A DNA stretch of 64,000 bases from Vagococcus jeotgali (lineage in GTDB: Bacteria; Bacillota; Bacilli; Lactobacillales; Vagococcaceae): contig NZ_CP142146.1 in assembly GCF_035918315.1 (NCBI RefSeq), forward strand, positions 62,001-126,000, written 5' to 3'. This document shows, in pieces, positions 2,047 through 38,145 of this stretch. A program made the position numbers and the translations under genes. Positions within the stretch are counted from its first letter, which is position 1; each line of letters begins with the position of its first letter. The notes beneath the pieces are model-generated. The model saw nothing but the letters and a program-made list of their open reading frames with translations, ran no database searches and was not told where the DNA came from.

Positions 2047-2136
2047 TTTTTTAAGGTTGCGTCAAGAATTATGTGTAAATGGAAAATCCATTCCATTATT
2101 AAATTAGAGAATTGATTCTAAAGTATCTTGAATTTC

Positions 2137-2628: not shown

Positions 2629-2671
2629 AATTTCTGTAGTAAAATAGGATTTTCTTTTTTCTAACCGCCGA

Positions 2672-3724: not shown

Positions 3725-3797
3725 ATGAAAAACCTAAATTTCTATTTACACAAAAGATTTTACGCTATCTTTTTTAAGTAAAATATCGAATTTTTAA

Positions 3798-3817
3798 AAG
3801 TATAATAAGTATCTAAA
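3798..3817 (+). repeat. 20-bp direct repeat flanking IS30 copy 2, left
   Basis: AAGTATAATAAGTATCTAAA here recurs with one change (T to A) at 5053-5072, just beyond the other end of IS30 copy 2. IS30 elements normally duplicate only 2-3 bases, so the repeat is longer than transposition explains. Confidence 0.7.
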
Positions 3818-21427: not shown

Positions 21428-22697
21428 TATGTTGTTCTGCTTCTTGCCATTTTTTTGAAAGTTGTGCAATGTAATCATCGTAAGATTCATTTTTATCAGG
21501 ATATAATCCAATGTTAATGGTTTTTTGTAAGACGTCAGTTAAACGAGATACGCCCACTTCATCGGCGATTTTAGCATAGGCATCGTTGACTTCTGGTGTT
21601 TCGGTTGCCACAGTTAAAATGACATGACTATTATCTACTACTTCTTTTTGTTCAGGAGATAAATCACTAATCTTGTTTGGCATCCCGTTTAAATCTTTAG
21701 CGTATCCACTAGCGCTTGAGTCAAAAAATTCTACAAAGGCTTTAGCAGTCTCTTTATTTTTAGAGTGTTTGTTAATACCAATAACAGCAGGAGCTCCTAG
21801 AGGTAGGCTTCTTCTGCCATCTGTTTCTACTGGGAAATTCATAATAGCAATTGGATCTTTTGTTAATTTTTGAATACCAGCAACTTCTTGTGAGCCGTTC
21901 ATGAGCATAGCGACTTTTCCATCGGCTAAATCTTGGAAAGCTTTTTGTGAATCCATTGTTACTGGATCAGGTTCGATTAAACCATTTGATGACATGGTAT
22001 AAAATAAATCCATTACCTCACGAATGGGTTGTCCCTTAGCAAAAGCATCACCTGCCTCAAGGGTTTTTGTTTTATATTGTTCTCCGCCAAAAGAAGTCAG
22101 AGCACCTGCCCAAACAGCTACAGCTTGATAGTTTGTATAAAAGGGAGTTGCATCTGTTTTTTCTTTAATGGTTTTAAGGTTATTAACAAATTCAGCTGTT
22201 GTTTTTGGGATATCAGTAATGCCAGCATCTCTTAAGACTTTTTCATTGTAAATAAAACCAAGAGAATTAAGAGCCACAGGTAGTCCGTAGACTTGATCAT
22301 CAAAATCTGCTTCTCTAACATCTAAATACTTATCTTGAAGCTCAGGAATAGTACCAAGGGATTCGAAGTAATTAGGATACTCAGCACGATTTCCTGCCAT
22401 TGAAAAGGGAATAAATAAAACATCACCATAATCACCACTATTTAACCTAGTAGTCACAGTCGAATCATAATCGGCAATATTTTCAAAATGAACAGCTGTC
22501 ACGTCTGGATTTTCTTCAATAAATTTATCTTCAATGGTTTTAAAAATAGCATCTCCATCTGTTCGGTTAGTTAACACAGTAATCTCCCCAGCGATGTTTT
22601 CTGTCGTTTTTTCTTCTTTAGATGTGTCACTCTTACCACAAGCACCTAATAAAAAAGTAGTCATCAGTATGACACTTAATGTTTTCTTTAAAGACAT
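21420..22697 (-). CDS. Sugar ABC transporter substrate-binding lipoprotein
   Basis: 425 residues. The N-terminus MSLKKTLSVILMTTFLLGAC is a lipoprotein signal with lipobox LGAC. The mature protein is a family-1 solute-binding protein (ITVLTNRTDGDAIFKTIEDK, later KVAMLMNGSQEV and GAPAVIGINKHSKNKETA). It captures a sugar outside the cell and delivers it to the two permeases downstream. It is first in the operon and divergent from the YieK-like/GH1 genes, which suggests the imported sugar is a glucoside or amino-sugar oligomer, although nothing in the sequence names it. Confidence 0.9.
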   Translation of the reverse strand: MSLKKTLSVILMTTFLLGACGKSDTSKEEKTTENIAGEITVLTNRTDGDAIFKTIEDKFIEENPDVTAVHFENIADYDSTVTTRLNSGDYGDVLFIPFSMAGNRAEYPNYFESLGTIPELQDKYLDVREADFDDQVYGLPVALNSLGFIYNEKVLRDAGITDIPKTTAEFVNNLKTIKEKTDATPFYTNYQAVAVWAGALTSFGGEQYKTKTLEAGDAFAKGQPIREVMDLFYTMSSNGLIEPDPVTMDSQKAFQDLADGKVAMLMNGSQEVAGIQKLTKDPIAIMNFPVETDGRRSLPLGAPAVIGINKHSKNKETAKAFVEFFDSSASGYAKDLNGMPNKISDLSPEQKEVVDNSHVILTVATETPEVNDAYAKIADEVGVSRLTDVLQKTINIGLYPDKNESYDDYIAQLSKKWQEAEQHND

Positions 22698-22929
22698 GTC
22701 TAAACCTTCTTTCTATTAATGATAACGCTCATCTTTTTCATTATAACTAAAAATAAAAATGAATTATATAGTTTTTGTGTTTTTTTTCTCAAACTAACCT
22801 AATATAAACATTTATTTATGGTGTAAAAGTTGTCATGTCAACTTTTTTATTCTTTTATCTTTTTTATAAAATAAGATAATAAATGAACAAAGTGATATTT
22901 GTGAGCGAACAATAAAGAAATCATATCGA

Positions 22930-22958
22930 TTGACATGGGAATGTTCCCACAATATAGA
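22930..22958 (+). promoter_or_regulatory. Promoter with palindromic operator in the spacer
   Basis: TTGACA (22930-22935), 17 bases, TATAGA (22953-22958). The spacer contains TGGGAATGTTCCCA, an almost perfect palindrome placed where a bound repressor would block RNA polymerase. It drives the YieK-like and GH1 genes. The spacer palindrome does not look like cre, so another regulator encoded elsewhere is implied. Confidence 0.75.
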
Positions 22959-22996
22959 CTCTTTTTATAAACGATTTATAGATAGGGGAGAATGCT

Positions 22997-23734
22997 ATGA
23001 GAATTATTGTCACAAAAGATTATCAAGAGTTGGGTAATGTTACAGCACAACATTTATTAGGTACAATGTTTGGTAACCAAAATAGAGTAAATTTAGCTAT
23101 TACAGCAGGTGCGACACCAAAATCTACTTATGAGCAACTAGTTCCTGAGATTAGAGACAAAGCTTATTTAAATCATGTTCATTATTATAATTTTGATGAA
23201 ATTCCTTATAAAAAAACACAACGTGATGGTATAACACTAAGTGCTTTGAAGGCACAATATTTTGAGCCAGCTAATATAAGTGAGTCTAACATCCATCCTC
23301 TGACTGTAGATGATGTGACAAACTTTGATCAAGACATACAAGATGCTGGAGGACTTGATTTAATTTTAATGGGGATAGGGGAGGATGGCCATTTTTGTGG
23401 CAATATGCCTGGTACAACACAGATGAATGATCTAACGACTCTAGTACCTTGTACACCAGAAATGAAGAGCTTACTTGCTAATATGTTAGGCTCAATTGAT
23501 GAGGCACCTGATGAGTATGTGACAATGGGCCCTCAAAGTGTGATGCGAGCTAAGCAATTGGTGTTGATTGCCAATGGGAAACACAAAGCAGAGATTATGA
23601 AAAAATTATTAACTGAAAATATAAGTTCAGATCTACCAGCTAGTATTTTAACACTTCATCCTAACTTAGTGATTATTATGGATGAAGAAGCGGCTTCTTT
23701 AGTACCTGAAGATAGATTAGAATCAGCTAGATAA
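22997..23734 (+). CDS. NagB/RpiA-fold sugar isomerase or lactonase family (YieK-like)
   Basis: 245 residues of the glucosamine-6-phosphate deaminase/6-phosphogluconolactonase superfamily. Phosphate-binding TAGATPKSTYEQL (near 36-48), NFDEIPYK (near 70) and GIGEDGHFCGNMPGTT (near 127-142) are visible. The last motif keeps DGH but has GNMPG in place of the FNEPG of true deaminases, as in E. coli YieK by my recollection. It probably acts on a sugar phosphate released by the adjacent 6-phospho-beta-glucosidase. The start follows GATAGGGGAGAATGCT. The two genes share one promoter and are 40 bases apart. Confidence 0.75.
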   Translation: MRIIVTKDYQELGNVTAQHLLGTMFGNQNRVNLAITAGATPKSTYEQLVPEIRDKAYLNHVHYYNFDEIPYKKTQRDGITLSALKAQYFEPANISESNIHPLTVDDVTNFDQDIQDAGGLDLILMGIGEDGHFCGNMPGTTQMNDLTTLVPCTPEMKSLLANMLGSIDEAPDEYVTMGPQSVMRAKQLVLIANGKHKAEIMKKLLTENISSDLPASILTLHPNLVIIMDEEAASLVPEDRLESAR

Positions 23735-23750
23735 TAAGTGAAAATGATAA

Positions 23751-25199
<1,449 letters not shown>

Positions 25200-25202
25200 A
25201 TA

Positions 25203-25240
25203 AAAAATCGTATGAATAGATCACTATTCATACGATTTTT
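25203..25240. terminator. Bidirectional intrinsic terminator
   Basis: A perfect 17-bp stem (25203-25219 with 25224-25240) with a 4-base loop, A-run on one side and T-run on the other. It separates the convergent GH1 and nitroreductase genes. Confidence 0.93.
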
Positions 25241-25245
25241 TATGC

Positions 25246-25842
25246 CTATTTGAATGTTTTAAATCGATTAGTGGAATCCATATATTCCTTTTCAAGAGCA
25301 GGAGACTTAATAGAACCAATCACAAGTTGTGCTTTTAATTTCCAAGATGATGGAATAGACCACTCTTTGGCGACAGCTTCATCAATAATTGGATTGTAAT
25401 GTTGTAAATTAGCTCCTATATTTTCATCAGACAAGGCTGTCCATACATTTGTTTGAGTAAGGCCGCTAGCTTGTTCAGACCAAACTGGGAAGTTATCTGC
25501 ATACAGTGGAAATTGTTCTTGTAATCCTTTAACAATATCTGTGTCTTCAAAGAATAATAGAGTTCCTTTTCCATCAGCAAATCCCTTTAATTTTTCTTGT
25601 GTACTTGGAAATACTTCTGTCGGAGTCAGGGGTTTTAATGCTGATTCAGTGATGTCCCACAGTTTATGATGAGCATCATTAAATAGGAAAATCACACGTT
25701 GGGTTTGTGAGTTAAATGCCGTTGGAGATTCTTTGACGACTTCCTTTACAATATCTTCAATTTGTTCTTCATTTAATGGTGTTTCTTTCCCTAAATGGTA
25801 AATTGAGCGACGATTTTTTAATGAGTTAATAAATGTTGTCAT
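25246..25842 (-). CDS. Nitroreductase-family protein (Frm2/Hbn1-like)
   Basis: 198 residues starting MTTFINSLKNRRSIYHLG, the FMN-binding N-terminus of nitroreductase-like oxidoreductases, followed by ESPTAFNSQTQRVIFLF and NVWTALSDENIGANLQHYNP, typical of the small Frm2-like branch. It is likely an FMN enzyme reducing nitro or quinone compounds in the cytoplasm. AAAAGGAATGACATAT precedes ATG 25842; the open frame runs on to 26043 but that part has no coding character. It is a single gene, convergent with GH1. Confidence 0.85.
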   Translation of the reverse strand: MTTFINSLKNRRSIYHLGKETPLNEEQIEDIVKEVVKESPTAFNSQTQRVIFLFNDAHHKLWDITESALKPLTPTEVFPSTQEKLKGFADGKGTLLFFEDTDIVKGLQEQFPLYADNFPVWSEQASGLTQTNVWTALSDENIGANLQHYNPIIDEAVAKEWSIPSSWKLKAQLVIGSIKSPALEKEYMDSTNRFKTFK

Positions 25843-26131
25843 ATATGTCATTCCTTTTCTTTTAAGTTTATAAACAGGAGTATACCAGCTAATTTTTAGT
25901 AAGTAAAACATTGTGCTTACGAAAAAGAAGTGAAATGATATATTATCTAGATCACTTACTATCATATTGATAAATTTATTTCCCCTAGACATAGTAGAGT
26001 AGAGCATATAAAATCTATGATGAGGTTGCTTTTTAAAAGCCATTTAAAGTATAATTACTTCTGTATGTATAGTCGTATAATATGTTAAAATTATTATGAT
26101 TGTATTGAAAATAGTTATTAGGAGAATAAAG
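25843..26131. other. Intergenic region between divergent genes
   Basis: About 290 bases with no gene. TATAAT at 26076-26081 is a likely -10 for the glycopolymer operon, with TTACTT at 26055-26060 only 15 bases upstream, so the -35 is weak. I find no riboswitch or terminator. Confidence 0.5.
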
Positions 26132-29100
26132 TTGAATAAAATAAAAATAACATCTATTATGCCTGTTTATAATGTTGAGGAATATATATCTGATGCACTA
26201 GACTCAGTTATTAGTCAAATAGATAAGAACATTGAGTTAGAAATTATTATAGTTGATGATGGTTCCACAGATATGACTAAAGATATTATTCGGGATTATC
26301 AAAAAGAATATGACTTCATAAAATTATTTGAATATGATCAGATAGGACCAGGACAAGCAAGAAATGTTGCGATGCTAGATGCTACAGGTGATTATATAGC
26401 TTTTATAGATGGTGATGATATATTATATCCAAAATCATATCAAAAATTATTGAACTCTGCACAATTAAATGATGCTGATATTGTTGTAGGTAATGTATCG
26501 AGATTTGATTCAACAAGAAAATTCTTTTTAAGTGGTTTACACAAAAAAATATTTTCTGATGAAAAAATAGGTACCAATATTGTTGGATGCCCTAGTCTAC
26601 TATTTGACACGACTTCTTGGAATAAGTTATTTAAAGCATCATTCTTAAAGGAAAATAAAATTACGTTTCCAGAAGGTATTTTATATGAGGATATTCCGTT
26701 TAATATGGAAGCTCACTTTAAATCATCAACTACGAATATAATTATGGATTACGTTTACAAGTGGCAATTACGAAATGATAGCAATAAGTCTATTACACAA
26801 TCTAGAGTTGATAAAAATAACATGTTGGATCGATTTACAGCAATGAAAAAATTTAATGAAATTATGATTTCCCAACAGATTGTTGATCAATCATTTATTG
26901 AAAAGAAAGAGCTTAAAGAGCTTGAAATAGATTTAAAATTATTTTTAGATCAGTTAAATGATGCTGACGATGAGTATTTTGAATTATTTTCCAAAGAATT
27001 AAGTCATTATATAGCCAATATGCAAACGGATGTGTTTTATACGAAGTTGGCAAATGCTGTTCGGATTAGATATCTTTTAGTTGTTGAAAATCGTAGGGAA
27101 GATCTGATACGTTTTAATGCAAATATGGCTGAGTATCATTTGCTTAGAAATGATATCGTAGAAAGTAAGGTTATGAAGAATATATCCAATACCCTATATG
27201 AAGAATTTCTAGATGAGTCATACTTTGATGTGACATCTGATGTAACCCCTATTACTAAGATAAAGAGTGTTTGTTGGAATGATACAACAATAACTATTAC
27301 TGGATTAGCCTTTTTAAGGTACTTAGATACTGATAGCACCGTTAAAATGTCAGCTCAATTAGAAACGCTAGAAGGGGACAAGGTAGTAACTGTTCCAATT
27401 AATATATTTAAAGACAAATCACATACTCAAATTTATGGTGGTGGTAAACAAAAATATTTAGTGAAGCGTTTGTATAATTATGATTACTCTGGTTACATGA
27501 TTGATATAGATATATCAAATCCACTTATTCAACAAGTAGTAAAAGAAGATTGTCTTGTTAAAGTGACACTGTCTAATAAAGGGTTTAGTGGTGATTTTTA
27601 TTTATCTAATCCAACTAAAGGGTTAAAAGTTCGACCAAAAGATAAAGTCATAGATAATATTGTATACAGCGTTGAATATAATAAACAGTGGCAATTAAAG
27701 CTGACAACGACTAAAATTGGTGCTTTTGTAGAAACTGTTGTAGTTCGTAATGACCAGATAACTATTGAGGGAGAATTAATTAGTCAAACAGCTAGAACTA
27801 TGAATTTGATAAACTATTCATTTGATTATATTGTGGAACCAACTGAAGAAAGTACAATTTTAGGAAATCGTTTCACTCTGGTTTTTAATTTATCTGATAT
27901 AGCTGAGTTAGAGTTCAAAGAGAACTTTTATTTACAGTTTATTTCAGATGACATTGAGCATTATAAAGTGGAAGTAACTGATGAATTTCAGCTGACTTTT
28001 TTTAAACATGGTCTAAATGAGGTTTGTGTAAATAAAACACGAAATAAGTTATTACAGATTTATATGGTTGATAATATTCAAGCTAAATTATTGGACTTTA
28101 AGATAGTATCTGAGCAAAAATATGTTACAAAGGTTCAATTTGATGTTTATCAAGAATTAGATGGAATCACTTCAACTAGCGAGCTGAGTTTTAGTATTAT
28201 AGGATCTAGGAATAGTGCTGGCTTAGCAATGCTGCTTAAACCCCATAATATTAATGTACTTGAATCGGGAGTAATACTAAGTTATGTAGTCTCTATAAAA
28301 GCAGCTGACTTGTATAGGTTTGGTAATTCATCATGGCAATTCTTACAAGCTTCTATAATAGATGGTTATACTACCAAGAGAAGGATAGTCAGTGAACAAT
28401 TCGGAGCAAAAAAACATTGGCACATTTTAAAAAATAACTTTACGCTATCTGAAAATCATCGACATGAGGTTCAGTTGGCATCAGGTTTAAAAAAGGAATA
28501 TTTTGAAAAGGGACCTAGAAGAAAGAAATTTTTAATGGATTACTTATATCCATTCTTTAGAAAACTGCCTCAAAAGAAAAAAATGGTGATGTTTGAAGCT
28601 TATTGGGGAAAATCATATAGTTGTAATCCTAAAGCTATGTATGAATATCTCGAAGAAAATTATCCAGAGTATACCAGTGTATGGAGCTTAAACAATCCTT
28701 ATGATGATATTAAAGGTAAAGCTATTAAAGTTCGAAGAAATAGTTGGCGTTACTATTATTATTTAGCACGTAGTAAATATTTTATAAATAATGTCAATTG
28801 GCCTAATCAGTATGAGAAACGTGAACATAGTATAGAGGTACAAACACTACACGGAACATTTCTAAAAACTATGGGACTTGATGTAGAAAATGAAGTGAAA
28901 ACACCCCAGCAGTTAGAAGGCTTTAGAAAACGTCATAGTCGTTGGGATTATCTAGTCTCACCAAGTCAATTCATGACGGATATTGCTAGACGTGTATTCG
29001 AATTTGACAAGGAAGTTATTGAGTATGGTTTCCCTAGAAATGATGTATTAGTGGACGAAAAAGAACATGAAAGGTTAGCTAAACAAGTAAGAGAAGCACT

Positions 29101-29656
29101 TAGTATCCCTAAAGATAAAAAAATTATTTTATATGCACCAACATATCGAAACAAGAGTGGCTTTAATTTTAAACTGGATATAGAACGTATGAAGGAAGAG
29201 TTATCAGATGAGTACGTATTGCTAGTCAGATTACATTATTTTGTTGCTAAATCTTTAGATTTAGTTAATGATGGCTTTGTTTATAATGTCTGTAACTACC
29301 CAGATGTCCAAGAGTTATTATTGATAACAGATATCTTGATGACAGATTATTCTTCGATCATGTTTGATTATGCTAATTTAAATCGTCCTATGATATTTTT
29401 CACCTATGATTTAGAGTATTACCGGGATGTATTGAGAGGGATGTATTTAAATTTTGAAATGGAAGCGCCAGGAAGACTTTGCAAAGAAACAGATGAATTA
29501 ATTGACTCATTAAAAGATCTGGATACTTACCAAAAACAATATGCTTCTAAATTATTAGATTTTAGAGAAAAATATAATGAATTTGAAACAGGAGAGGCAT
29601 CTAAAGAAATATTTAAAATAATATTTAATGAAAATAAAAATGATAAAGGAAGATAA
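26132..29656 (+). CDS. Fusion of GT2 glycosyltransferase and TagF-like CDP-glycerol glycerophosphotransferase
   Basis: About 1174 residues. The N-terminal GT-A glycosyltransferase (residues 1-230) has ITSIMPVYNVEEYISDALD, VDDGSTD and DGDDILY. A beta-rich middle (roughly 350-780) has no motif I know. The C-terminal third (about 810-1165) is TagF-like: HGTFLKTMG, YAPTYRNKSG, LLVRLHY and TDYSSIMFDYANLNRPMIFF. Such enzymes polymerise glycerol- or ribitol-phosphate chains on the cytoplasmic face; the fused GT would add sugars. TTG 26132 is chosen because TAGGAGAATAAA precedes it; ATG 26096 has no ribosome site. First gene of a four-gene operon. The polymer itself is unknown. Confidence 0.85.
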   Translation: MNKIKITSIMPVYNVEEYISDALDSVISQIDKNIELEIIIVDDGSTDMTKDIIRDYQKEYDFIKLFEYDQIGPGQARNVAMLDATGDYIAFIDGDDILYPKSYQKLLNSAQLNDADIVVGNVSRFDSTRKFFLSGLHKKIFSDEKIGTNIVGCPSLLFDTTSWNKLFKASFLKENKITFPEGILYEDIPFNMEAHFKSSTTNIIMDYVYKWQLRNDSNKSITQSRVDKNNMLDRFTAMKKFNEIMISQQIVDQSFIEKKELKELEIDLKLFLDQLNDADDEYFELFSKELSHYIANMQTDVFYTKLANAVRIRYLLVVENRREDLIRFNANMAEYHLLRNDIVESKVMKNISNTLYEEFLDESYFDVTSDVTPITKIKSVCWNDTTITITGLAFLRYLDTDSTVKMSAQLETLEGDKVVTVPINIFKDKSHTQIYGGGKQKYLVKRLYNYDYSGYMIDIDISNPLIQQVVKEDCLVKVTLSNKGFSGDFYLSNPTKGLKVRPKDKVIDNIVYSVEYNKQWQLKLTTTKIGAFVETVVVRNDQITIEGELISQTARTMNLINYSFDYIVEPTEESTILGNRFTLVFNLSDIAELEFKENFYLQFISDDIEHYKVEVTDEFQLTFFKHGLNEVCVNKTRNKLLQIYMVDNIQAKLLDFKIVSEQKYVTKVQFDVYQELDGITSTSELSFSIIGSRNSAGLAMLLKPHNINVLESGVILSYVVSIKAADLYRFGNSSWQFLQASIIDGYTTKRRIVSEQFGAKKHWHILKNNFTLSENHRHEVQLASGLKKEYFEKGPRRKKFLMDYLYPFFRKLPQKKKMVMFEAYWGKSYSCNPKAMYEYLEENYPEYTSVWSLNNPYDDIKGKAIKVRRNSWRYYYYLARSKYFINNVNWPNQYEKREHSIEVQTLHGTFLKTMGLDVENEVKTPQQLEGFRKRHSRWDYLVSPSQFMTDIARRVFEFDKEVIEYGFPRNDVLVDEKEHERLAKQVREALSIPKDKKIILYAPTYRNKSGFNFKLDIERMKEELSDEYVLLVRLHYFVAKSLDLVNDGFVYNVCNYPDVQELLLITDILMTDYSSIMFDYANLNRPMIFFTYDLEYYRDVLRGMYLNFEMEAPGRLCKETDELIDSLKDLDTYQKQYASKLLDFREKYNEFETGEASKEIFKIIFNENKNDKGR

Positions 29657-29657
29657 G

Positions 29658-31535
29658 ATGAAGAAAAATATAATGAACCAGTTTCTTTTAGGAATAATAT
29701 TATTATCAAATATAATGCCACTAACAGTAATTGCTCAGGAAGAAGACACGGTTATAAAACATAATCATTCAACTGAAGAAGTATTATCGGACTCAACCTC
29801 TAGTTCAGATTTTATTATTCCAGAGTTGGAACAGACAGAATCTAGTGAGGTTATGGTAGAGGAGACAACAAAAGAGAATGAGGCATCTATAGATACAACT
29901 GACTCAGAAAACTTAAGTGACAGTACAGTTGTAAATGAGGAGTTATCAAGTACTCAACTAAAAGAATCAGATATAGAAGCAAAAATAACTTCTGATTTAG
30001 ATAATAATGCCGGAGTTAAAGTGACACCTTACGAACAGAGAATATACAAGAAAAATTGGGATATTTGGAACAAACCATATGTGTCAGGTGCTAAGTCAGT
30101 TGATAAATCTACAAAATATTTTGAACAAATAGTGACAGTAACTAGAGAAGCAAGCTCTAACAATACAGTCTATGTACTTATCAAGGTAGATAATAAAGAG
30201 ATAGGTTGGATTAATAAAGGTGCCATAGATTCTGTAGACCCACTATACACAAAAGAAGGTATATTGGTAGAAAACACATATAAATATATAACCAAAAATA
30301 ATTGGGATATTTGGAGTGAACCTTATAAGTCAGGTGTTAAAAAAGTTAAGAACACATCAGAGTATTTAAATGAGAAAGTTTTGTTTACTAGAAGAGCTAA
30401 GACGACATCAGGTACATATGTAAAAATATGGGTTTATCGTGATGGGAGATATCAATACATTGGGTGGTTGAATGAAACCGGGTTATCAAACTCTATTCCA
30501 GAAATTAATCAAATGTCGGGTGTTTTAATACCAAATACCTATGGAGAGATTCTTAAAAGTAATTGGGATATCTGGGAACGTCCATATAAACCAGGAACCA
30601 AATCTGTAGCAAATACAAGTAATTATAAAAATCAGACACTTTTATTTACGAGAAAGTCAGTGACTAATTCAGGTACTTATTATAAAATGTGGGCAAAGAA
30701 AAATGGAAGTTACCAATTCGTTGGTTGGGTATCTGATAAAGGGACAACATTATTAGATAAAATTGAATATAAAAAGTCAGTTTTAGTTCCTATGAAAAAA
30801 GTAAGCAAGAAAAATTGGACATTGTGGAATAGTCCATATGTATATGGATCCAAACAAAAAGGAAATTCTTCTACGTATTATGGGAAGAATGTACAAATTG
30901 TAGCTGAGGCAAAAACAAATTATGGTATTTACTATGAGATTACATCATTTGGAAAATCAATTGGATGGATAAATAAGGATGGATTAAGTGGTTTAGGTAA
31001 CGAGGTCATTGTTCCTTTGATTCAAGCTAACCAGATTAACACGGCTGGCTATGCACCTAGTGGTTGTGCTGCTTGTGCTGCCTATACAGTATTACATTCT
31101 AAAAATGTTGCAATGAATCGGAACTTAACATGGTTTTATAATAATCTACCTTTACATTCAAGTAATCCTGATTTAGGTCAGATTGGTAGTCCTTGGAATT
31201 ATAGTGAGTTTAAGGCAGTTATTTCTCCAGTAGGACTAAACAATTTTATGAAATCTCTAGGAGGAAATTCACAAAATATTACAGGACAATCAATGAGCTA
31301 TGTAAAAAAAGAGCTACAAATGGGAAATCCCGTTTTATTTTGGGGAAGAGTAGGTTTAAGTGATACATCTAACTCACTAACAACACACGTTATGATTTTT
31401 ACTGGATATAAAGATGGATATTATTTAGTGCAAGATCCAGCGCTAACTGGATCAAATCATAGGAGATGGTTTAGCGAGAAACGTGTCAATGATTATATGG
31501 CTATTAAAGGTCGTAAAATGGTAGTCGTGAGATAG
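29658..31535 (+). CDS. Secreted protein with four GW modules and a C39-like peptidase domain
   Basis: 625 residues. A signal peptide (MKKNIMNQFLLGIILLSNIM, cleavage likely near VIAQ-EE) is followed by an acidic Ser/Thr/Glu-rich linker to about residue 120. Four GW/SH3-like repeats start near residues 128, 208, 294 and 378, each with NWDIW or NWTLW and ending in GWI/GWL/GWV. The C-terminus (450-620) is a C39-like cysteine peptidase: YAPSGCAACAAYTVLHS, TTHVMIFTGYKDGYY, VQDPA. GW modules bind lipoteichoic acid in known proteins, so it is probably held at the cell surface. The start follows AAAGGAAGATAAG, one base after the TagF stop. Natural substrate unknown. Confidence 0.85.
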   Translation: MKKNIMNQFLLGIILLSNIMPLTVIAQEEDTVIKHNHSTEEVLSDSTSSSDFIIPELEQTESSEVMVEETTKENEASIDTTDSENLSDSTVVNEELSSTQLKESDIEAKITSDLDNNAGVKVTPYEQRIYKKNWDIWNKPYVSGAKSVDKSTKYFEQIVTVTREASSNNTVYVLIKVDNKEIGWINKGAIDSVDPLYTKEGILVENTYKYITKNNWDIWSEPYKSGVKKVKNTSEYLNEKVLFTRRAKTTSGTYVKIWVYRDGRYQYIGWLNETGLSNSIPEINQMSGVLIPNTYGEILKSNWDIWERPYKPGTKSVANTSNYKNQTLLFTRKSVTNSGTYYKMWAKKNGSYQFVGWVSDKGTTLLDKIEYKKSVLVPMKKVSKKNWTLWNSPYVYGSKQKGNSSTYYGKNVQIVAEAKTNYGIYYEITSFGKSIGWINKDGLSGLGNEVIVPLIQANQINTAGYAPSGCAACAAYTVLHSKNVAMNRNLTWFYNNLPLHSSNPDLGQIGSPWNYSEFKAVISPVGLNNFMKSLGGNSQNITGQSMSYVKKELQMGNPVLFWGRVGLSDTSNSLTTHVMIFTGYKDGYYLVQDPALTGSNHRRWFSEKRVNDYMAIKGRKMVVVR

Positions 31536-31555
31536 TTAGAGAGAAGGTGATGACA

Positions 31556-32359
31556 GTGTCTAAATATAGTATATCTATTTTGGGTAGTTGTGTTTCTAGA
31601 GATTTATTCAACAGCCATTTTGTTAGTAATTACGATGCACAATTTGAAGTATTAAGTGACCAACAGCATATGAGTATAATATCTTTAATGTCCCCTCCCT
31701 TGTCAAAAAATCTATCAGATATTTCAGGTGATATAACGACGTTTTATAAACACAATTTTCAACGAGACTTAAATAAAAATTACTTAGAAGAATTGAAGTA
31801 TAATCCACCAGAGTTTTTGTTGATAGATTTTTATACAGATGCTTTTTACGGAACAGTTGAAGAAAAAAGTGGCAGCTATATTACAAATAAGTTATGGCAG
31901 TACAAGAAATTAGGTTGTTATCGTGAGTTAGAAATAGGTAAAGAGTATTCAGTATACAATAATTCGCTTGAATTTATTGAGTTATGGAAAAACTATTTTG
32001 ATCTATTTATGGTGTTTATTAATGAATACTGTCCGAAGACTAAAATTATTATTAATAAGGCAAAGTTCGTTAATCGGTATCTAGATAGCAAGAAGGATAA
32101 GATGGTTACTATCTCAGATGTTACGGATGATAAGTGGAAAGCATTTCATATTGATCGTTTTAATATTATTTGGAATTTATTTGATACATATGCGATTGAA
32201 AAATATAATTTAGATTCAATTGATTTTGATATGAATACTTATTATGGTGACCCTTTTCATAAGTGGGGGCTATTCTATGTACATTATAATCAGGAATTTT
32301 ATAATGATACATATCAAAAATTATTAATCATTGCTGATAGGAGTAAATGTGAATGCTAA
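31556..32359 (+). CDS. DUF6270-like protein
   Basis: About 267 residues, cytoplasmic, no membrane segment. It begins SKYSISILGSCVSRDLFN; the ILGSCVSRD motif is the hallmark I associate with DUF6270 proteins, which often sit among capsule or teichoic-acid genes and look SGNH-hydrolase-like. Late D and H residues (YGDPFHKWG, FYVHYNQ) could complete such a site, but that is inference. GTG 31556 is chosen with GAGAAGG 8 bases upstream; ATG 31550 is an alternative. It lies between the GW protein and a lipoprotein and may modify the polymer made by the TagF fusion. Confidence 0.65.
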   Translation: MSKYSISILGSCVSRDLFNSHFVSNYDAQFEVLSDQQHMSIISLMSPPLSKNLSDISGDITTFYKHNFQRDLNKNYLEELKYNPPEFLLIDFYTDAFYGTVEEKSGSYITNKLWQYKKLGCYRELEIGKEYSVYNNSLEFIELWKNYFDLFMVFINEYCPKTKIIINKAKFVNRYLDSKKDKMVTISDVTDDKWKAFHIDRFNIIWNLFDTYAIEKYNLDSIDFDMNTYYGDPFHKWGLFYVHYNQEFYNDTYQKLLIIADRSKCEC

Positions 32360-32841
32360 AGCCTTTGGGAAATGTATTAATGATATTAGTTTGCTTTACT
32401 TTATTAAGTGCATGTAAAATTAGCGGTAAAAAGGAAGAAAGTTATTTAGAGGACTCTGTCTCTAAAAATGATTATTTTTTACCAGAAACTACAAAAGATA
32501 ATATCAGTACTAGTATCGGATCTGCTAATTTCGAGTTTAAAGTTACTCCAGATAACCCTGAAGTCATCATTAAAAATGAAGATGTAGAACATGTAGTCAT
32601 CGATGTTAAATTATCAGGTTTTTTAGAAGACGATTTATTCATTTATGTTGATGATATTTTGATAGAGCGAAGGAAAAATGATGCTAAAAATATTAGTATT
32701 CCTCTATCTAATATGGTTTTTGCAGTTACACCAGGACAACATGTTTTAACAATTTCTCAATATGAAAGTAATGATGAGGAAAACAAATTAATAAATAGTA
32801 TCTCGAAAAATTACAATGTGGTTTTTGAAAAAGAGAAGTGA
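32353..32841 (+). CDS. Small lipoprotein of the glycopolymer operon
   Basis: 162 residues. The N-terminus MLKPLGNVLMILVCFTLLSA ends in a lipobox (LLSAC), so the mature protein is lipid-anchored outside the membrane. The remainder is beta-rich and acidic (FEFKVTPDNPEVIIKNEDVE, LSGFLEDDLFIYVDD), with an immunoglobulin-like look but no motif I recognise. Its ATG overlaps the preceding gene by 7 bases, so the two are translationally coupled. It probably works with the GW/C39 protein at the surface. Function unknown. IS3 debris starts 40 bases after its stop. Confidence 0.75.
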   Translation: MLKPLGNVLMILVCFTLLSACKISGKKEESYLEDSVSKNDYFLPETTKDNISTSIGSANFEFKVTPDNPEVIIKNEDVEHVVIDVKLSGFLEDDLFIYVDDILIERRKNDAKNISIPLSNMVFAVTPGQHVLTISQYESNDEENKLINSISKNYNVVFEKEK

Positions 32842-32931
32842 TGACAAGAATATTTTATACTTAAAAAAGAGACTTTATGTAGTGCACCCCTAAAGTTAGA
32901 CCAAAAAATCTAACTTTAGGGGTGTATTTTT

Positions 32932-33017
32932 ATGACAAAATATGATTATAACTTTAAGGTTAAGGTTGTCCAAGAGTATCTTAGAGATGATGTTAGTTAC
33001 TCTGAATTGGCAACACT
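32932..33017 (+). pseudogene. IS150-type OrfA, N-terminal fragment
   Basis: Reads MTKYDYNFKVKVVQEYLRDD then VSYSELATLF and breaks off where the next element begins. It is the first helix-turn-helix of an IS150-type OrfA. The second half resumes near 35005; about 100 bases between are missing. Confidence 0.75.
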
Positions 33018-33074
33018 TTTCTGTACAAAAATTATAAGGTCTTTATTTTATTTAGATAGTTATTCTATGTTCTG

Positions 33075-33872
33075 CTAAATAGCCTGTTTCAACTCCCAAT
33101 CTAAACGGTAATTAATCGGGGATTGATAGCCAAGCTTGCCATGTTTTCTAAACTTGTTCCACCAATTGACATAATCCATTAACTCATATTGTAGTTCAAA
33201 CAATGAGTCAAAAGATTGTTGGTAAATAAACTCAATTTTAAAAGCTCGATAGGTTGCTTCTGCCACAGCGTTGTCATAGGAACAACCAGGACGTGATAAA
33301 GATCATTTTATCTGAAACACATCCAATAATTCATCAATACTTTGGTTATCAAATTCTTTTCCTCGGTCTGTATGAAAAATTTCAACATCATCTAATGGCT
33401 GTTTAATCGTTCCGATTGCCTGTAACACAAGATCCACAGATTTGTTAGGACCACTAGAATGCCCAACTATTTCTAGGTTGAACAAATCGAGAATAAAGCA
33501 GACATAATGCCACTTTTTGCCTACTTTAACATAGGTTAAATCTGTCACTAAAGCTTCCATAGGTTGCATTTTATCAAATTGACGTGATAAAACATTATCG
33601 ATTTTCTGTTCATTTTTACTCGTTGCTTGAGGCTTAAATTTCAGTGTTGTGTAGCTTGAAATGAAATTAAACTTATTCATGATTCGTCGTATCCTTCTTC
33701 TTGAAACAATTAATCCTTGATCGTTTAAATCATCTTTAATTCTTCTTGCTCCATAGGAGTTACGGCTATCTGTAAATGACTCAATGACTGCTTTTTCAAC
33801 AATAGCTTCTGATTTTTTTCTTTTGACTTCATAATAATAAGCCCCACGAGAAATTTCTAATTTTCGACACAT
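33075..33872 (-). pseudogene. IS3 OrfB of element C, one nonsense codon
   Basis: The N-terminal HTH_21 part (MCRKLEISRGAYYYEVKRKK) is followed by an rve integrase core with D in ALVTDLTYVKVG, D in FHTDRGKEFD, and the C-terminal part (AEATYRAFKIEFIYQQ, YVNWWNKFRKHGKLGYQSP). One TGA at about 33300 interrupts IK*SLSRPGCSYDNAVAE; the frame is otherwise open through it, so this is a point mutation, not a deletion. OrfB is normally made by -1 frameshifting from OrfA. Confidence 0.87.
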
Positions 33873-33899
33873 CGCTGATACACTATACTTCTTTTTGTT

Positions 33900-34204
33900 T
33901 TCCCTAACAACTTCTACTTTCGTCCGAATATCAGCGCCGCTTGCTTTAAAATATCATTCTCCATCATCAGTTCTTTATTTAGTTTTCGTCATTCACGCAA
34001 CTCTTTTTCTTCTGGTGTCAAATTATCTTTCTCTTTGAATGATCCTGACTGGTTATATTGTTTTACCCATTTATCAAAGGTTGATGGTGTCAGGTCATAT
34101 TCTCTTAAAATATCTTTTCTAGGTTTTCCTGATTTATACAGTTCCACCATTTGTTTCTTAAATGATTCTTTGAAGGTCCGTCTTGGTTTTCTGTTAGTTG
34201 TCAT
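33900..34204 (-). pseudogene. IS3 OrfA of element C, one nonsense codon
   Basis: Starts MTTNRKPRRTFKESFKKQMV with a helix-turn-helix (RKDILREYDLTPSTFDKWVK). A TGA at 33989 interrupts KELRE*RKLNKELMMEND; beyond it the frame continues to the normal end LKQAALIFGRK. The homologous OrfA at 34637 reads through the same place with a sense codon. Confidence 0.85.
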
Positions 34205-34309
34205 GAAATAAGCTCCTACTTTGTTTTTTATTAAGTATAAACACCTTATCTTTATTGTTCAACTAAGTGTAACCTATTCAGGTCGACTAGCTGTAAATAG
34301 TCGATTTAA

Positions 34310-34601
34310 TTTGTTTGGAGTCAATGATTGATTGGATGAACCTGAATAAACCTGAATAAACCTTAAAATAAGCTAATGTATACGTAGAATGCAAATTAAA
34401 TTTAGTCATAATTTGTTTAATCTTTTTCCTAGAAAGTTGAATATTTTTGTCTTGAAGTGATTTTTTTAATCGTCTTGTTCCATAACTTTGACGGTTATCA
34501 TAAAAAGCTTCTACCACTGATAATTCAATAGCGGGATCCACTAATTTTTCTTTATTTTTATAGTAGTAAGTTGCTCTTGAAATGCCTAAACAATGACACA
34601 T
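34310..34601 (-). pseudogene. IS3 OrfB of element B, N-terminal fragment
   Basis: Reads MCHCLGISRATYYYKNKEKL, then SYGTRRLKKSLQDKNIQLSR and MTKFNLHSTYTLAYF before running into repeated ACCTGAATAAACC sequence and unrelated codons near 34345. The integrase core is missing, so it is inactive. Confidence 0.8.
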
Positions 34602-34636
34602 CGCTGATATGGAATATTTATGTTTATTGTCAGTAA

Positions 34637-34927
34637 TTACTTGTCTTTTCGTCCAAATATCAGCGCTGCTTGCTTTAAAATATCATTTTCCATTTCTAAC
34701 GTTTTTAATTTTTTTCGCATTTCTTTTAGCTCTCTTTGTTCATCAGCCAAATTATCTTTTTCGCTAAAAGAATCAGATTGCGTTGATTGACGAATCCACT
34801 TATCAAATGCTGAAGGTGTTAACTCGTATTCTCTAATAATATCTATACGTGGCTTTCCAGCTCGATAAAGATCAACCATTTGTTGCTTAAATTCTTTGGT
34901 AAAAGTACGTCTTATTCGTTTTGACAT
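34637..34927 (-). CDS. IS3-family OrfA (element B), intact
   Basis: 96 residues: helix-turn-helix (RIDIIREYELTPSAFDKWIR) and a C-terminal leucine-zipper-like coiled coil (ELKEMRKKLKTLEMENDILK) ending QAALIFGRKDK. The frame is complete with its own start. OrfA alone binds the IS ends but cannot transpose, and its OrfB partner is truncated, so any expressed protein would be only a potential inhibitor. Confidence 0.8.
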   Translation of the reverse strand: MSKRIRRTFTKEFKQQMVDLYRAGKPRIDIIREYELTPSAFDKWIRQSTQSDSFSEKDNLADEQRELKEMRKKLKTLEMENDILKQAALIFGRKDK

Positions 34928-35004
34928 GAAAAATTCTTCCAGTGTGTTTTCTTATAATTATCACACCTTAATTTTTCTGTCTAGTCAAGGGTAACTTACC
35001 CACT

Positions 35005-35394
35005 GTTAAAAAAGATAAAACTTACTCTATTCAATTTAAATTAAATGCGATAGAGTTATATCTATCAAGTAAGAAAACCTATCAAGAAACCGCTAATGCC
35101 TTAAATATGAACAACTTTTCTCTTATCGCGAATTGGTTAAGGCAATTTAAAGAAAAAGGGATCGATGGGCTTTCTAGAATGAAAGGTCGTCCACCAAAAA
35201 TGTCTAAAGATAAAACGAATGATTTAACCAAATCAGATAAAGCTAAAATTAAAGAATTAGAATCACAGTTACTTACGCTAGAAATAGAGAATGCTTATTT
35301 AAAAGAATTGAGGAAGCTAAGAAAGCAGGAAGAAAAACAACGAATGAAACTATCTCGTCCATCATCTTTAGCCTCCGAAGAAAATTCAAATTAA
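35005..35394 (+). pseudogene. IS150-type OrfA, C-terminal fragment
   Basis: Continues the OrfA begun at 32932: KTYSIQFKLNAIELYLSSKK (second helix-turn-helix), NNFSLIANWLRQFKEKGIDG, then a coiled coil (KIKELESQLLTLEIENAYLK) and the normal end. A few codons of OrfB (FKLTDLLATINFRLKMAM) follow, then the right terminal repeat, so nearly all of OrfB has been deleted. Confidence 0.8.
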
Positions 35395-35530
35395 CCGATC
35401 TTCTTGCGACCATTAATTTTCGGCTAAAAATGGCAATGTAAGAACATAAAAAAGGAGTAGATTTCTCTACTCCGAAAAGGTCTAACTTTTAGCGTTCACT
35501 ACACTTCGATAGATTTTATAGGTTTTTAAT

Positions 35531-36307
35531 TTAAAAAATCAACTGCCAACCATTATACAAATTAACAACTAATACAAAAATAATAACGCCTTGATAAATA
35601 TGTCTCACTATAGAATCTGGTAATCTCCCGCTTAAACTCGCTCCTAAAAAACCACCAATGATAGCTGAAGGAATAATGTAGTAGAGCATAGTCAAATCGT
35701 ATCCTACCAAAGACCCACCTAAAATAATCGTTAAAATCTTAGCTAATTGAGAAAAGAATATAATAATAATTGAGTAAACAGTCGCATCTTTGATAGGAAA
35801 ACTAAATAGCATCATCAAAATAGCCACATTAATTGGCCCACCACCAATACCTAGAAGACTAGCTAAAAAGCCAAGAAACCATCCAATCAAAATAAGTACT
35901 AAGGGATTTGATAAAGAATAATTTTTCCAGTGAGAGACACTATAAAAATAGGAAAATAAAAGAGTAATCACAGTTAAAATGATCTGTATAAGTTGTACTT
36001 CTTTATCACTTTGAAAGAGATGAAGTAAAAAGTCAAAAGCAATATTGCCTGTGATCCCTCCTAAAACTGATCCTAATGATAGAAGTAATGCGTTAGACCA
36101 ATTAATGTTGATCCCATTTTTAACTTGCTTATATGTGGATATAACAGACATGGTCAAAACAGCGACACTTGAATAAAAAGAAATAGCATAGAGAGGGTGA
36201 AAATTAATTAAATCAAAAAGAGGTTTGATAATTACCCCGCCTCCCATACCAGAAATAGCTCCAATACTATTTGCGATAATAATGATAATAGCGTAAATAA
36301 ATCCCAT
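35531..36307 (-). CDS. TauE/SafE-family membrane transporter
   Basis: 258 residues, about eight hydrophobic segments in two halves, each with a glycine-rich motif (GAISGMGGGVIIKP near residues 17-30, and SLLGIGGGPINVA near 148-160), the hallmark of the TauE/SafE permease family. Members export or import sulfite, sulfoacetate or other small organosulfur anions; the substrate here is unknown. The ATG at 36307 follows AAAAGGTGACAAG. Single gene, divergent from the alpha-glucoside operon, 3' end next to IS3 debris. Confidence 0.88.
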   Translation of the reverse strand: MGFIYAIIIIIANSIGAISGMGGGVIIKPLFDLINFHPLYAISFYSSVAVLTMSVISTYKQVKNGININWSNALLLSLGSVLGGITGNIAFDFLLHLFQSDKEVQLIQIILTVITLLFSYFYSVSHWKNYSLSNPLVLILIGWFLGFLASLLGIGGGPINVAILMMLFSFPIKDATVYSIIIIFFSQLAKILTIILGGSLVGYDLTMLYYIIPSAIIGGFLGASLSGRLPDSIVRHIYQGVIIFVLVVNLYNGWQLIF

Positions 36308-36484
36308 CTTGTCACCTTTTTTCTAAATTGTTTACCTCCATATTATGTTAAATAGTAAAAATAAGCAAGGTTTATTATAAGTTAATCAAGCTAACCCCAC
36401 TTCTTTAGAAATGATGGAATTTTTCCCAGCCTTTGACACTAAGTATCTAGTAAATGATATTAATTTCTAAAGGCGTGTCACATA

Positions 36485-36513
36485 TTGAATAGAAAGCGTT
36501 TTAGATATATATT
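36485..36513 (+). promoter_or_regulatory. Promoter with internal cre, alpha-glucoside operon
   Basis: TTGAAT (36485-36490), 17 bases, TATATT (36508-36513). TAGAAAGCGTTTTAGA (36490-36505) lies between the boxes and closely fits cre, so CcpA should block this promoter when a preferred sugar is present. Confidence 0.8.
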
Positions 36514-36549
36514 TTGTATATCAACAAATGAAAGGGGTTGCACATAAAT

Positions 36550-38145
36550 ATGATGGAAAAAGTTCAACGGTTTGGTGGTGCAATGTTTACACCTGTTCTT
36601 TTATTCTCATTTTCAGGTTTGATGGTATCACTGGCTATTATTTGTAAAAATCCATTGCTAGTTGGAAGTATCGCTAACGATGGAACAGTTTGGTTTAATA
36701 GTTGGTCCATTATTGAGAATGGAGCCTGGACAGTTTTTAACCAAATGGAATTATTATTTGTGATTGGTTTACCAATTGGTCTTGCTAAAAAAGCGAATGC
36801 AAGAGCAGTCATGGAGGCTTTCGTCATTTATCTAACTTTCCAATACTTCGTCAGTGGTATGTTGGAATATTTTGGTTCATTTTTTGGAGTGGATTTCACT
36901 CAAGAGGTAGGCGGAGTTAGTGGTTTGAAAATGATTGCAGGTATTAAGACACTTGATACAGGAATTATTGGTGCAATTGTTATTTCTGGTTTGGTCGTCT
37001 ATATCCATAATCGGTTCTTCGACACGAAATTACCAGATTTTCTAGGAATTTTCCAAGGATCATCTTTAGTTGTGATTATCGGATTTTTCGTGATGTTACC
37101 CATTGCATTTATCACAGCATTCTTTTGGCCGAAACTTCAAATGGGGATTAACTCCACACAAGTTTTCTTAGCCAATGCTGGTGTCATCGGAGTATTTATT
37201 TACACTTTCTTAGAGCGGATACTTATTCCAACAGGCTTGCATCACTTTGTTTATTCGCCATTTGTTTATGGTCCAGCTGTTGTACCAGAGGGAATCACAA
37301 AAGCATGGATAGGTCATTTAAACGAGTATGCTTCTATGACAACACCGCTTAAAGAATTGTTCCCTGAAGGTGGGTTTGCTCTTCATGGAAATGGTAAAAT
37401 GTTTGGTTCATTAGGTATTGCTGCAGCATTTTACGCAACATCTTTAAAAGAAAATAAGCAAAAAGTATTATCTATTCTAGTACCAGTTACACTAACAGCC
37501 TTTTTAGCTGGGATTACTGAACCATTAGAATTTACATTCTTATTTATTTCACCATTGTTATTTGTGATACATGCACTCTTGTCAGCGTTAATGGCTGCAA
37601 CGATGTATGCCTTTGGTGTTGTTGGTGATATGGGTGGTGGTTTCTTAGATTTACTAGCTAAAAACTGGATTCCATTATTTGCTAATCATAAAGTAGAGAT
37701 ATTTACACAATTAATTATAGGATTATTGTTCTCGGCTATTTATTTCTTTATCTTTAGATTTTTGATAATCAAGATGGACTTACCAACACCAGGTAGAGAA
37801 TTAGAAAAAGAAGGCGTTCAATTATTCACTAAAAAAGATTACAAAGAAAAACAAGCTAATCAAAAAGGAAATACTACATCTGCAGTCAGCGGTGAGACAA
37901 ATCAGTATTTAGATAAGGCTGCTATTTATCTAGAAGCTTTAGGTGGGGCTGATAATATTGAAAAAGTGACTAATTGTGCGACTAGGTTAAGAGTGACTGT
38001 TCACGATGATAGTTTAGTCGGCAATGATGCTTTGTTTAGAGAAGGTGGTGCCCACGGGGTTGTTCGTAATGGAAAAGCCCTTCAAGTTATTGTTGGTTTA
38101 TCTGTTCCTCAAGTAAGAGAGCAGTTTGAAAAATTATTAGGTTAA
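36550..38145 (+). CDS. Alpha-glucoside (maltose-type) PTS EIICB
   Basis: About 531 residues. The EIIC membrane domain (1-420) has GLPIGLAKKANARAVMEAF, LERILIPTGLHHFVYSPF and GITEPLEFTF, as in glucose/maltose-type EIIC. After a linker, the EIIB domain carries the phospho-cysteine in VTNCATRLRV near residue 476. It takes up and phosphorylates maltose or a similar alpha-glucoside. No EIIA domain is fused; a separate EIIA is encoded at 40789. The start at 36550 (or 36553) is 12 bases after AAAGGGG; an in-frame TTG at 36538 touches that site and is unlikely. The GH4 gene follows after 39 bases. Confidence 0.92.
   Translation: MMEKVQRFGGAMFTPVLLFSFSGLMVSLAIICKNPLLVGSIANDGTVWFNSWSIIENGAWTVFNQMELLFVIGLPIGLAKKANARAVMEAFVIYLTFQYFVSGMLEYFGSFFGVDFTQEVGGVSGLKMIAGIKTLDTGIIGAIVISGLVVYIHNRFFDTKLPDFLGIFQGSSLVVIIGFFVMLPIAFITAFFWPKLQMGINSTQVFLANAGVIGVFIYTFLERILIPTGLHHFVYSPFVYGPAVVPEGITKAWIGHLNEYASMTTPLKELFPEGGFALHGNGKMFGSLGIAAAFYATSLKENKQKVLSILVPVTLTAFLAGITEPLEFTFLFISPLLFVIHALLSALMAATMYAFGVVGDMGGGFLDLLAKNWIPLFANHKVEIFTQLIIGLLFSAIYFFIFRFLIIKMDLPTPGRELEKEGVQLFTKKDYKEKQANQKGNTTSAVSGETNQYLDKAAIYLEALGGADNIEKVTNCATRLRVTVHDDSLVGNDALFREGGAHGVVRNGKALQVIVGLSVPQVREQFEKLLG

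Follow-up and report, generated by a model that had tools for sequence, protein, structure and literature searches.

A packed operon of four genes in Vagococcus jeotgali probably makes and tags a second teichoic-acid-like wall polymer and supplies a secreted enzyme that docks on it, as a compact relative of a wall teichoic acid (WTA) locus of Listeria. The operon occupies positions 26132-32841, on the forward strand, of the window, the whole stretch of 64,000 nucleotides (nt) that was analysed (contig NZ_CP142146.1, positions 62,001 to 126,000). The computed evidence consists of the parts of the operon and their order, the presence of the same block in two genomes, the genomic linkage of DUF6270 genes to teichoic acid genes, an SGNH-type model of the DUF6270 protein and conserved active-site residues. 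Whether the four genes also form a movable accessory teichoic-acid module, of a 'polymer plus cognate client' kind, is evenly balanced.

A four-gene block shared by two genomes

The four open reading frames (ORFs), spaced by 1, 11 and -7 nt, encode proteins labelled P0001 to P0004, whose lengths are given in amino acids (aa); G000 is the source genome.

26132..29656, + strand: polymerase (P0001), 1174 aa, TTG start after AGGAG
26156-26539, + strand: GT2 domain of the polymerase (Pfam/NCBIfam)
27269-28501, + strand: middle region of the polymerase, without known family
28547-29629, + strand: TagF-type phosphotransferase domain of the polymerase (Pfam/NCBIfam)
29658..31535, + strand: GW/C39 protein (P0002), 625 aa from the ATG at 29658 (Pfam, NCBIfam GW_glycos_SH3)
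30030..30227, + strand: GW module 1, PF13457 (G000:C1:92030-92227)
30273..30485, + strand: GW module 2, PF13457
30540..30740, + strand: GW module 3, the lowest-scoring of the four (E 1.7e-4; 23.4 bits, cut-off 21)
30804..30986, + strand: GW module 4, PF13457
31032-31442, + strand: C39-like domain, with Q459, C470, H577 and D593
31547..32359, + strand: DUF6270 protein (P0003), 270 aa from a GTG, with an ATG one codon later (PF19786)
32353..32841, + strand: small lipoprotein (P0004), 162 aa, 7-nt overlap with the end of the DUF6270 frame (ORF and lipobox by eye)

Domains of the polymerase and of the GW/C39 protein are called by both Pfam and NCBIfam (the C39 domain by Pfam alone) and DUF6270 by Pfam, while the lipoprotein has no domain call. 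The four packed genes had been described in an initial annotation made from the DNA letters, and the ORFs, their spacings, the family assignments and the recurrence of the same set in the same order in genome G006 bear that description out.

Among 14 genomes of the genus, the source genome counted, a full-length polymerase is present in four (G000, G006, G009 and G010), C39 matches in six, DUF6270 above the family cut-off in two (G000 and G006; a weak G007 match interrupted by three stops was left out of the count) and the lipoprotein (E <= 0.001) in the same two, and the full set is found in 2/14. G006 carries all four genes in identical order, with spacings of 6, 28 and -4 nt. Protein identity between the two genomes reaches 62 % for the polymerase, 61 % for DUF6270, 38 % over residues 24-160 of the lipoprotein and, for the GW/C39 protein, 78 % over residues 118-625 and 44 % over 52-192. 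Similarity at the DNA level spans about 26115-32308 in three large pieces, starting some 17 nt before the polymerase start and ending near the end of DUF6270, and the two lipoproteins resemble each other at the protein level only. The G006 block adjoins prfC. In the source genome prfC lies at 1,575,649-1,577,226 and the block at 88,132-94,841 of a 2,016,295-base contig, a distance of 1.48 Mb along the contig or 0.53 Mb if it is circular. The presence of the same four genes in the same order in G006 argues that the arrangement is not due to chance, and the different neighbours in the two genomes indicate that the block has held its order across neighbourhoods. The order is therefore not peculiar to this strain, although the full set is restricted to those two genomes, and subsets of it occur elsewhere. 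G009 and G010 combine the polymerase with C39 or GW proteins and have no DUF6270, and on a Terribacillus contig (L140) two LCP genes lie ahead of a gene for the same type of polymerase (41 % identity along almost its entire length), which overlaps the following DUF6270 gene by 8 nt. In G003 there is a C39 match and, by the profiles used, no polymer gene in the stretch read.

In an alternative reading, the locus is a hot spot that collects envelope genes, and the C39 protein and the lipoprotein are cargo with no functional tie to the polymer. The varied prfC neighbourhood of the relatives speaks for this, as does the G006 locus with its GH25, VanY-like and beta-lactamase-like secreted proteins; moreover, in G005 and G004 a lipoprotein gene that is not like P0004 by profile adjoins a C39 gene at loci devoid of DUF6270. 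This explanation is nevertheless rather doubtful, given that order and tight spacing are kept in two genomes with different neighbours, and that a GW or C39 gene lies within 5 kb downstream of the polymerase in 4/4 genus genomes with the full-length enzyme. As a separate observation, the prfC neighbourhood is a variable site in the genus, with TagF proteins in L075, L076, L078 and L079 (G006, G009, G011 and G002), mostly together with GW or C39 genes.

A predicted bifunctional polymerase

At the level of the polymerase, Pfam recognizes a GT2 domain (PF00535) at residues 9-136 with E 9e-32 and a Glyphos_transf/TagF domain (PF04464) at residues 806-1166 with E 5e-115. Sequence matches in the PDB comprise TagF 3l7i over the whole protein (4e-96), the Cps3D capsule polymerase 8qoy (1e-39) and TarL 8va1; together with the TagF domain, they support the earlier description of a teichoic-acid-type polymerase. 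The GT2 part further matches chains named as glycosyltransferases, namely 5hea GalT1 and 5tze, presumably TarS. Residues D42, D43, D93, D95, W163-K165, E186, D187, H907 and H1035 are invariant in 4/4 homologues, and the N-terminal GT2/GT-A domain thus carries the DxD-type motif (D93-x-D95, 4/4) of GT-A/TagF enzymes. H907 aligns with a residue that is His in 3l7i, which we take to come from S. epidermidis, and Asn in 3l7j, and H1035 aligns with the histidine of an RMHYL motif; these two positions are presumably the two catalytic histidines of TagF. GT-A/TagF polymerases are an established enzyme family, and in Gram-negative capsule polymerases this plan combines both activities (PMC5974469). 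The enzyme of the operon is likewise predicted to make a glycosyl-polyol phosphate polymer with both activities in one chain.

The dual activity is the part of the initial proposal that stays a prediction, the presence of the two domains being confirmed. TagF 3l7i aligns to P0001 twice, at residues 5-193 (E 8e-13) and 805-1168, and its N-terminus keeps similar motifs, so that a GT2-like N-terminus is by itself no proof of sugar transfer. The enzyme could then be a plain TagF in which the GT2 part is structural and the product an unglycosylated poly-alditol phosphate, the rest of the pathway remaining the same. We regard this as unlikely in view of the invariance of the GT2 residues (even if TagF shares motifs of that kind), the matches of the GT2 part to GalT1 and 5tze, and the precedent of the Gram-negative capsule polymerases.

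Between the two domains lies the middle region, for which the PDB offers no noteworthy match by sequence (a single one at E 1). The strands of a low-confidence model hint that it is beta-rich. Its profile did not match the N-terminal portions of eight fusion proteins that contain DUF6270 (hhalign probability 0.2), and relatives of the region were met in only 2/348 genomes of the class, both of them part of the search profile.

DUF6270 as a candidate O-acyltransferase linked to teichoic acid genes

The third gene product matches PF19786 (E 2e-27) and does not match PF01757. In 17/17 aligned DUF6270 proteins G13, C15, D94, H246 and Y252 are invariant, Cys15 being carried by a GSC motif, and none of the aligned positions holds an invariant Asn. 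Structure prediction had been suggested for this protein and for the middle region of the polymerase, and it was informative for the former but not for the latter. The best AlphaFold2 (AF2) model of DUF6270, built with four sequences, reaches a predicted local distance difference test score (pLDDT) of 85.9 and a predicted template modelling score (pTM) of 0.87, while the other four models range from pLDDT 80 to 55. Ten Foldseek matches with E 1e-4 to 1e-3 are mostly SGNH/GDSL-type hydrolases, together with an acetyltransferase domain and one designed scaffold (TM-scores 0.3-0.5, root-mean-square deviation 7-12 A). VIA-align places first a part of a phage N4 tail chain (Z 11.7), followed by EstL5 (11.6), two PatB enzymes (11.5) and other SGNH/GDSL proteins down to 11.4; most of the 50 matches listed are esterases, lipases, acylhydrolases or peptidoglycan O-acetyltransferases. 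The model thus supports an SGNH alpha/beta/alpha fold with Cys at the place of the nucleophile, in agreement with the SGNH-like character first assigned to the protein. A WcbI-like fold was also weighed, as a Cys lies close to CoA in WcbI, whose fold is mainly helical and largely novel (PMC4104973); WcbI is not among the 50 matches listed by Foldseek or by VIA-align. By sequence, no relative of DUF6270 was found in the PDB, and no paper naming the family was found in the literature searched. No signal-like N-terminus is seen by eye, so DUF6270 should act in the cytoplasm.

The genomic context of the family was assessed with 65 DUF6270 loci, each comprising the gene and about 10 kb on either side where the contig allows. 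All score above the cut-off; 53 come from a set of 246 genomes of the order and 12 more from 398 genomes of the class. The controls were 37 stretches taken at fixed positions in 19 of those genomes whose contigs are long. TagF or TagG/TagH is found near DUF6270 in 48/65 loci and 12/16 genera, against 1/37 controls (Fisher p 3e-13, kinship ignored). Two of the positive loci, L204 and L205 from one genus, contain a DUF6270 that our own profile misses, and without them the counts are 46/63 loci and 11/15 genera; L134 was scored negative, though the Pfam scan finds an adjoining TagF-family protein above its cut-off (60 bits). The TagG/TagH seeds were chosen by eye from L120, whose ATPase has TagH-type models as best NCBIfam matches (one of them scoring 319.4 bits where the cut-off is 320); a tagH gene is annotated in L. 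monocytogenes within the same gene order as that of the L120-type locus. A contig search with a smaller DUF6270 alignment returned 2 named loci, and two viral_contigs scans returned 1 and 0.

A second regularity concerns acyltransferase-3 (AT3, PF01757). Among the seven full-length GT2-middle-TagF loci found (the window, G006, G009, G010, G021, Terribacillus and an S. nepalensis plasmid), DUF6270 is present without AT3 in four, AT3 is present without DUF6270 in three (G009, G010 and the plasmid, there at a distance of about 6 kb), and the two coincide in none; the chance of this exact 4/3 split if the two were independent is 1 in 35. Across 85 stretches with a minimum length of 10 kb, AT3 occurs in 0/65 with DUF6270 and in 4/12 with TagF but without DUF6270, and it occurs in 0/37 control stretches (the 65 here are the linkage set minus L204 and L205, plus L140 and L141). 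As DUF6270 and AT3 genes replace each other, DUF6270 is proposed to be a cytoplasmic teichoic acid O-acyltransferase. AT3 proteins are O-acyltransferases of surface polymers and, like DUF6270, lie near the GT2-middle-TagF gene, at the loci where DUF6270 is missing; the two belong to different protein families.

The opposite chemistry would make DUF6270 a cytoplasmic esterase or phosphodiesterase that removes a group, trimming the polymer or a lipid-linked precursor in editing, release or recycling. GDSL/SGNH esterases or lipases are frequent among the fold matches listed, and a Cys nucleophile suits hydrolysis as much as transfer; group addition, however, explains the mutual exclusion with AT3 more easily, and removal appears improbable to us. 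The family also travels on a phage. Brochothrix phage NF5, which carries integrase and CI-like repressor genes, encodes between endolysin and integrase a DUF6270 protein with 48 % identity to that of the window (L142:4962-5771; L245:4971-5771). This interval is a usual place for genes that alter the host surface or receptor, and carriage there fits addition or removal alike.

The GW/C39 protein and the lipoprotein

P0002 consists of an N-terminal signal-like stretch (by eye), a Ser/Thr/Glu-rich linker, four GW modules and a C-terminal C39-like domain. Pfam identifies the four GW modules with E 1e-32 and Peptidase_C39_2 at residues 459-595 with E 5e-11. The C39-type peptidase signature is a Cys-His-Asp triad with an upstream Gln, and Q459, C470, H577 and D593 are invariant in 7/7 aligned C39-like proteins, which fits a working cysteine peptidase. 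The architecture initially described, in which a protein of secreted type combines four GW modules with a C39-like domain, is thereby confirmed by Pfam, NCBIfam and the conserved residues. A wall-directed role is likely, considering the GH25, VanY and beta-lactamase-like proteins of the G006 locus.

The GW modules match those of InlB (1m9s) and of Lmo1076 (5jqc), the latter presumably being Auto. They would belong to the kind that docks on teichoic acid, and binding to the cognate polymer is supported by precedent (PMC10335673). The matches and the published WTA binding are in keeping with the proposal that the modules would dock the protein on the polymer made by the same operon.

GW modules are also used inside polymer synthases. 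The source genome contains five GW matches, four in P0002 and one within the TagF-GW-GT-B enzyme of the main locus, which has 1180 aa (40.9 bits against a cut-off of 21) and is encoded on the - strand at L088:13963-17505 (G000:C1:1608862-1612404). This enzyme and further TagF-GT-B synthases with GW (L083:3448-6786, L146:6463-10068 and L201:5904-9527) have no signal-like N-terminus by eye. A local scan gave GW hits, some of them low-scoring, in 14/113 distinct TagF-type ORFs; after overlapping stretches were merged, this amounted to 11 GW-bearing TagF-type proteins, each from a different genome or record and 9 belonging to the source genus, and Pfam confirmed GW in 4/4 enzymes tested (L083, L088, L146 and L201). 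At L201 the synthase lies 107 nt before a stop-broken DUF6270 gene. Synthases of this type were seen in the source genome, its relatives, a Peribacillus plasmid and another family, and in the literature searched GW modules and TagF were met together in one paper, in unrelated mentions.

P0004 has a lipobox-like LLSAC motif by eye and no Pfam family above cut-off. That it displays the polymer, as first proposed, found no support. It could instead be a partner of the C39 protein, an inhibitor or immunity-like factor, with genes 2 and 4 forming a hydrolase-control pair, as small lipoprotein genes stand by C39 genes at four loci (the window, G006, G005 and G004), but this is decidedly improbable, with n=4 and two lipoprotein pairs that compare at 5 % probability in the signal region only. 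On the same comparison the G005 and G004 lipoproteins were rejected as homologues of P0004.

Comparison with known systems

The closest known system is the WTA locus of Listeria with aut, ispC and lygA, so that the operon is best seen as a variant and not as a new kind. There, lygA, ispC and aut adjoin the WTA glycosylation cluster and the GW autolysins are described as clients of WTA; LygA is a 693-aa autolysin with six GW domains, and LygA and Auto bind galactosylated WTA (PMC10335673). Surface anchoring of InlB and Ami also depends on WTA sugar (PMC7238011). Two genera of the DUF6270 set (g15 and g38) are called Listeria-like here by inference from a gene order as in L. monocytogenes NCTC7974 and a 693-aa six-GW protein of the size of LygA. 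The claim that no described pathway has this composition does not hold, as 11/65 loci (10 in g15 and 1 in g38) combine DUF6270 with TagG/TagH, a GW protein and a GT2-TagF encoded as a single frame, besides the established GT-A/TagF family (PMC5974469). In both L120 and L121, a gene resembling pyruvate carboxylase (by eye) is followed by a lipoprotein-like gene, TagG, TagH and the gene of a glucosaminidase of 693 aa that bears six GW modules. Next in line are DUF6270, encoded on the opposite strand and with an extra N-terminal part of about 415 aa, then a GT2-type gene, a gene for a product of 700 aa (Pfam PMT_2-type in L120), GT2-TagF (774 aa), a 336-aa protein and galU. A YfhO-like assignment of the 700-aa protein of L120 was dropped in favour of PMT_2. 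In the same locus, residues 1-415 of the DUF6270 protein (L120:10132-12138) have no Pfam family, and the 336-aa protein (L120:17953-18963), whose start overlaps the preceding GT2-TagF gene, has no Pfam match.

Both systems place TagF-type enzymes beside the gene of a GW cell-wall enzyme. Listeria-type loci differ in including TagGH and other sugar genes, in a GW protein that is a glucosaminidase (4/4 tested by Pfam: L120, L121, L124 and L180) and in the extended DUF6270 (one scanned), whereas the operon of the window has four genes only, a C39-like domain, an added lipoprotein and its exporter elsewhere. L. monocytogenes NCTC7974 itself has no DUF6270 annotated in the WTA locus, and one match in the record lies by eut/cob genes. 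The capsule polymerases described by Litschko et al. 2018 (PMC5974469) share the N-terminal GT-A domain and the TagF-like phosphotransferase in one chain, but the polymerase of the operon is Gram-positive and has a linker of no known family where theirs is mostly a TPR-rich domain. With the SGNH superfamily (PatB, DltD, GSCFA; PMC9487903) DUF6270 shares the predicted fold, the N-terminal G-x-nucleophile and the C-terminal His, and differs in having Cys for Ser, in lacking the DxxH Asp and in being apparently cytoplasmic; the part of the SGNH family table consulted in that source does not name DUF6270.

A proposed pathway and the evidence that weighs against it

From these parts we infer the activities, the polymer structure, the docking target and the role of the lipoprotein as follows. 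The GT2-TagF enzyme would elongate a glycosyl-alditol-phosphate polymer in the cytoplasm, GT2 adding the sugar and TagF the alditol phosphate from CDP-alditol. DUF6270, with its SGNH fold and Cys/His active site, would modify the polymer before export, most likely by O-acyl transfer. A TagGH-type transporter and an LCP protein encoded elsewhere in the genome would then export the polymer and attach it to the wall; genes of these types lie at about 1613.6-1618.6 kb of G000:C1 (ABC2_membrane permease, LytR_cpsA_psr, and an ATPase with TagH-type models as best NCBIfam match, 316 bits against a cut-off of 320). With its four GW modules the secreted C39-like protein may dock on the completed polymer, where it would cut a wall or protein bond, and the lipoprotein may be an accessory held at the membrane that perhaps regulates the C39 protein.

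Several observations weigh against this reading. Besides the restriction of the full set to 2/14 genomes and the double alignment of TagF, the AF2 model of the middle region is unusable (pLDDT 40, pTM 0.26). DUF6270 shows G-x-C in 17/17 instead of the block I GDS Ser and lacks, in the 17 aligned proteins, a conserved Asp three positions ahead of the invariant His246 (block V DxxH); it is therefore SGNH by fold only and not by signature, a departure that many CE2 esterases share as regards the acid residue (PMC9487903). The linkage set is skewed, 46/65 loci coming from the two Listeria-like genera (34/46 positive; elsewhere 14/19). Neither TagF nor TagGH is found by the profiles used near 17/65 DUF6270 loci, and the 483-aa DUF6270 protein of L. 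monocytogenes (L144:7989-9440) lies between ethanolamine (eut) and cobalamin (cob) genes, so the family is not confined to teichoic acids. As to the exchange with AT3, 8/12 TagF stretches without DUF6270 also have no AT3, four of the genes counted served to build the AT3 profile, and L128 and L141 are the same contig; together with the distance of about 6 kb on the plasmid, the last two points make the exchange a lead and not a proof. Finally, LygA and Auto do not bind L-rhamnosylated WTA, hence GW modules do not bind every teichoic acid (PMC10335673).

Genomic surroundings

25246-26043, divergent: nitroreductase-family gene upstream of the operon (Pfam)
32878-35503: insertion sequence (IS) remnant of IS3 type downstream of the operon, 2.6 kb, with 25-nt imperfect inverted ends

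The IS3-type remnant contains several broken transposase-like frames and perhaps more than one nested element. IS30 and IS256 transposase genes around the operon region are among the window intervals 411-4945, 9697-10866, 44236-45363 and 48643-49884, which also include a frame with weak similarity to a SAG1250-type relaxase (56 bits, the cut-off being 575). No RNA family reaches its gathering score in window 22000-37000. Promoter-like sites (46 against 47.7 in shuffles) and terminator-like sites (3 against 2.0) are about as frequent as by chance, and the operon DNA has no match among PLSDB plasmids at megablast sensitivity.

Implications

A broader reading joins these lines, and we hold it as a speculative one that is probably not correct in all its parts. 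DUF6270 would represent a new class of cytoplasmic Cys-SGNH acyltransferases that modify chains before export, replace the membrane AT3 and are borne by temperate phages to change the receptor. GW modules would be general polymer readers used twice, to hold the growing chain in cytoplasmic TagF-GT-B synthases and to dock exported enzymes, and the operon would be a minimal transferable unit of polymer and client.

The linkage of DUF6270 with teichoic acid assembly, for which a concrete and testable chemistry is proposed, and the use of GW modules in two settings are new here and constitute the most useful outcome. If the proposal is true, it would provide a function for the DUF6270 family and a reason for its carriage by phages. 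It would also offer a compact four-gene system to address how polymers with sugar in the backbone, the type II wall teichoic acids, are made, a pathway called little known in 2018 (PMC5974469). The GW modules inside synthases would in turn make the idea that the same module reads polymer inside and outside the cell directly testable.

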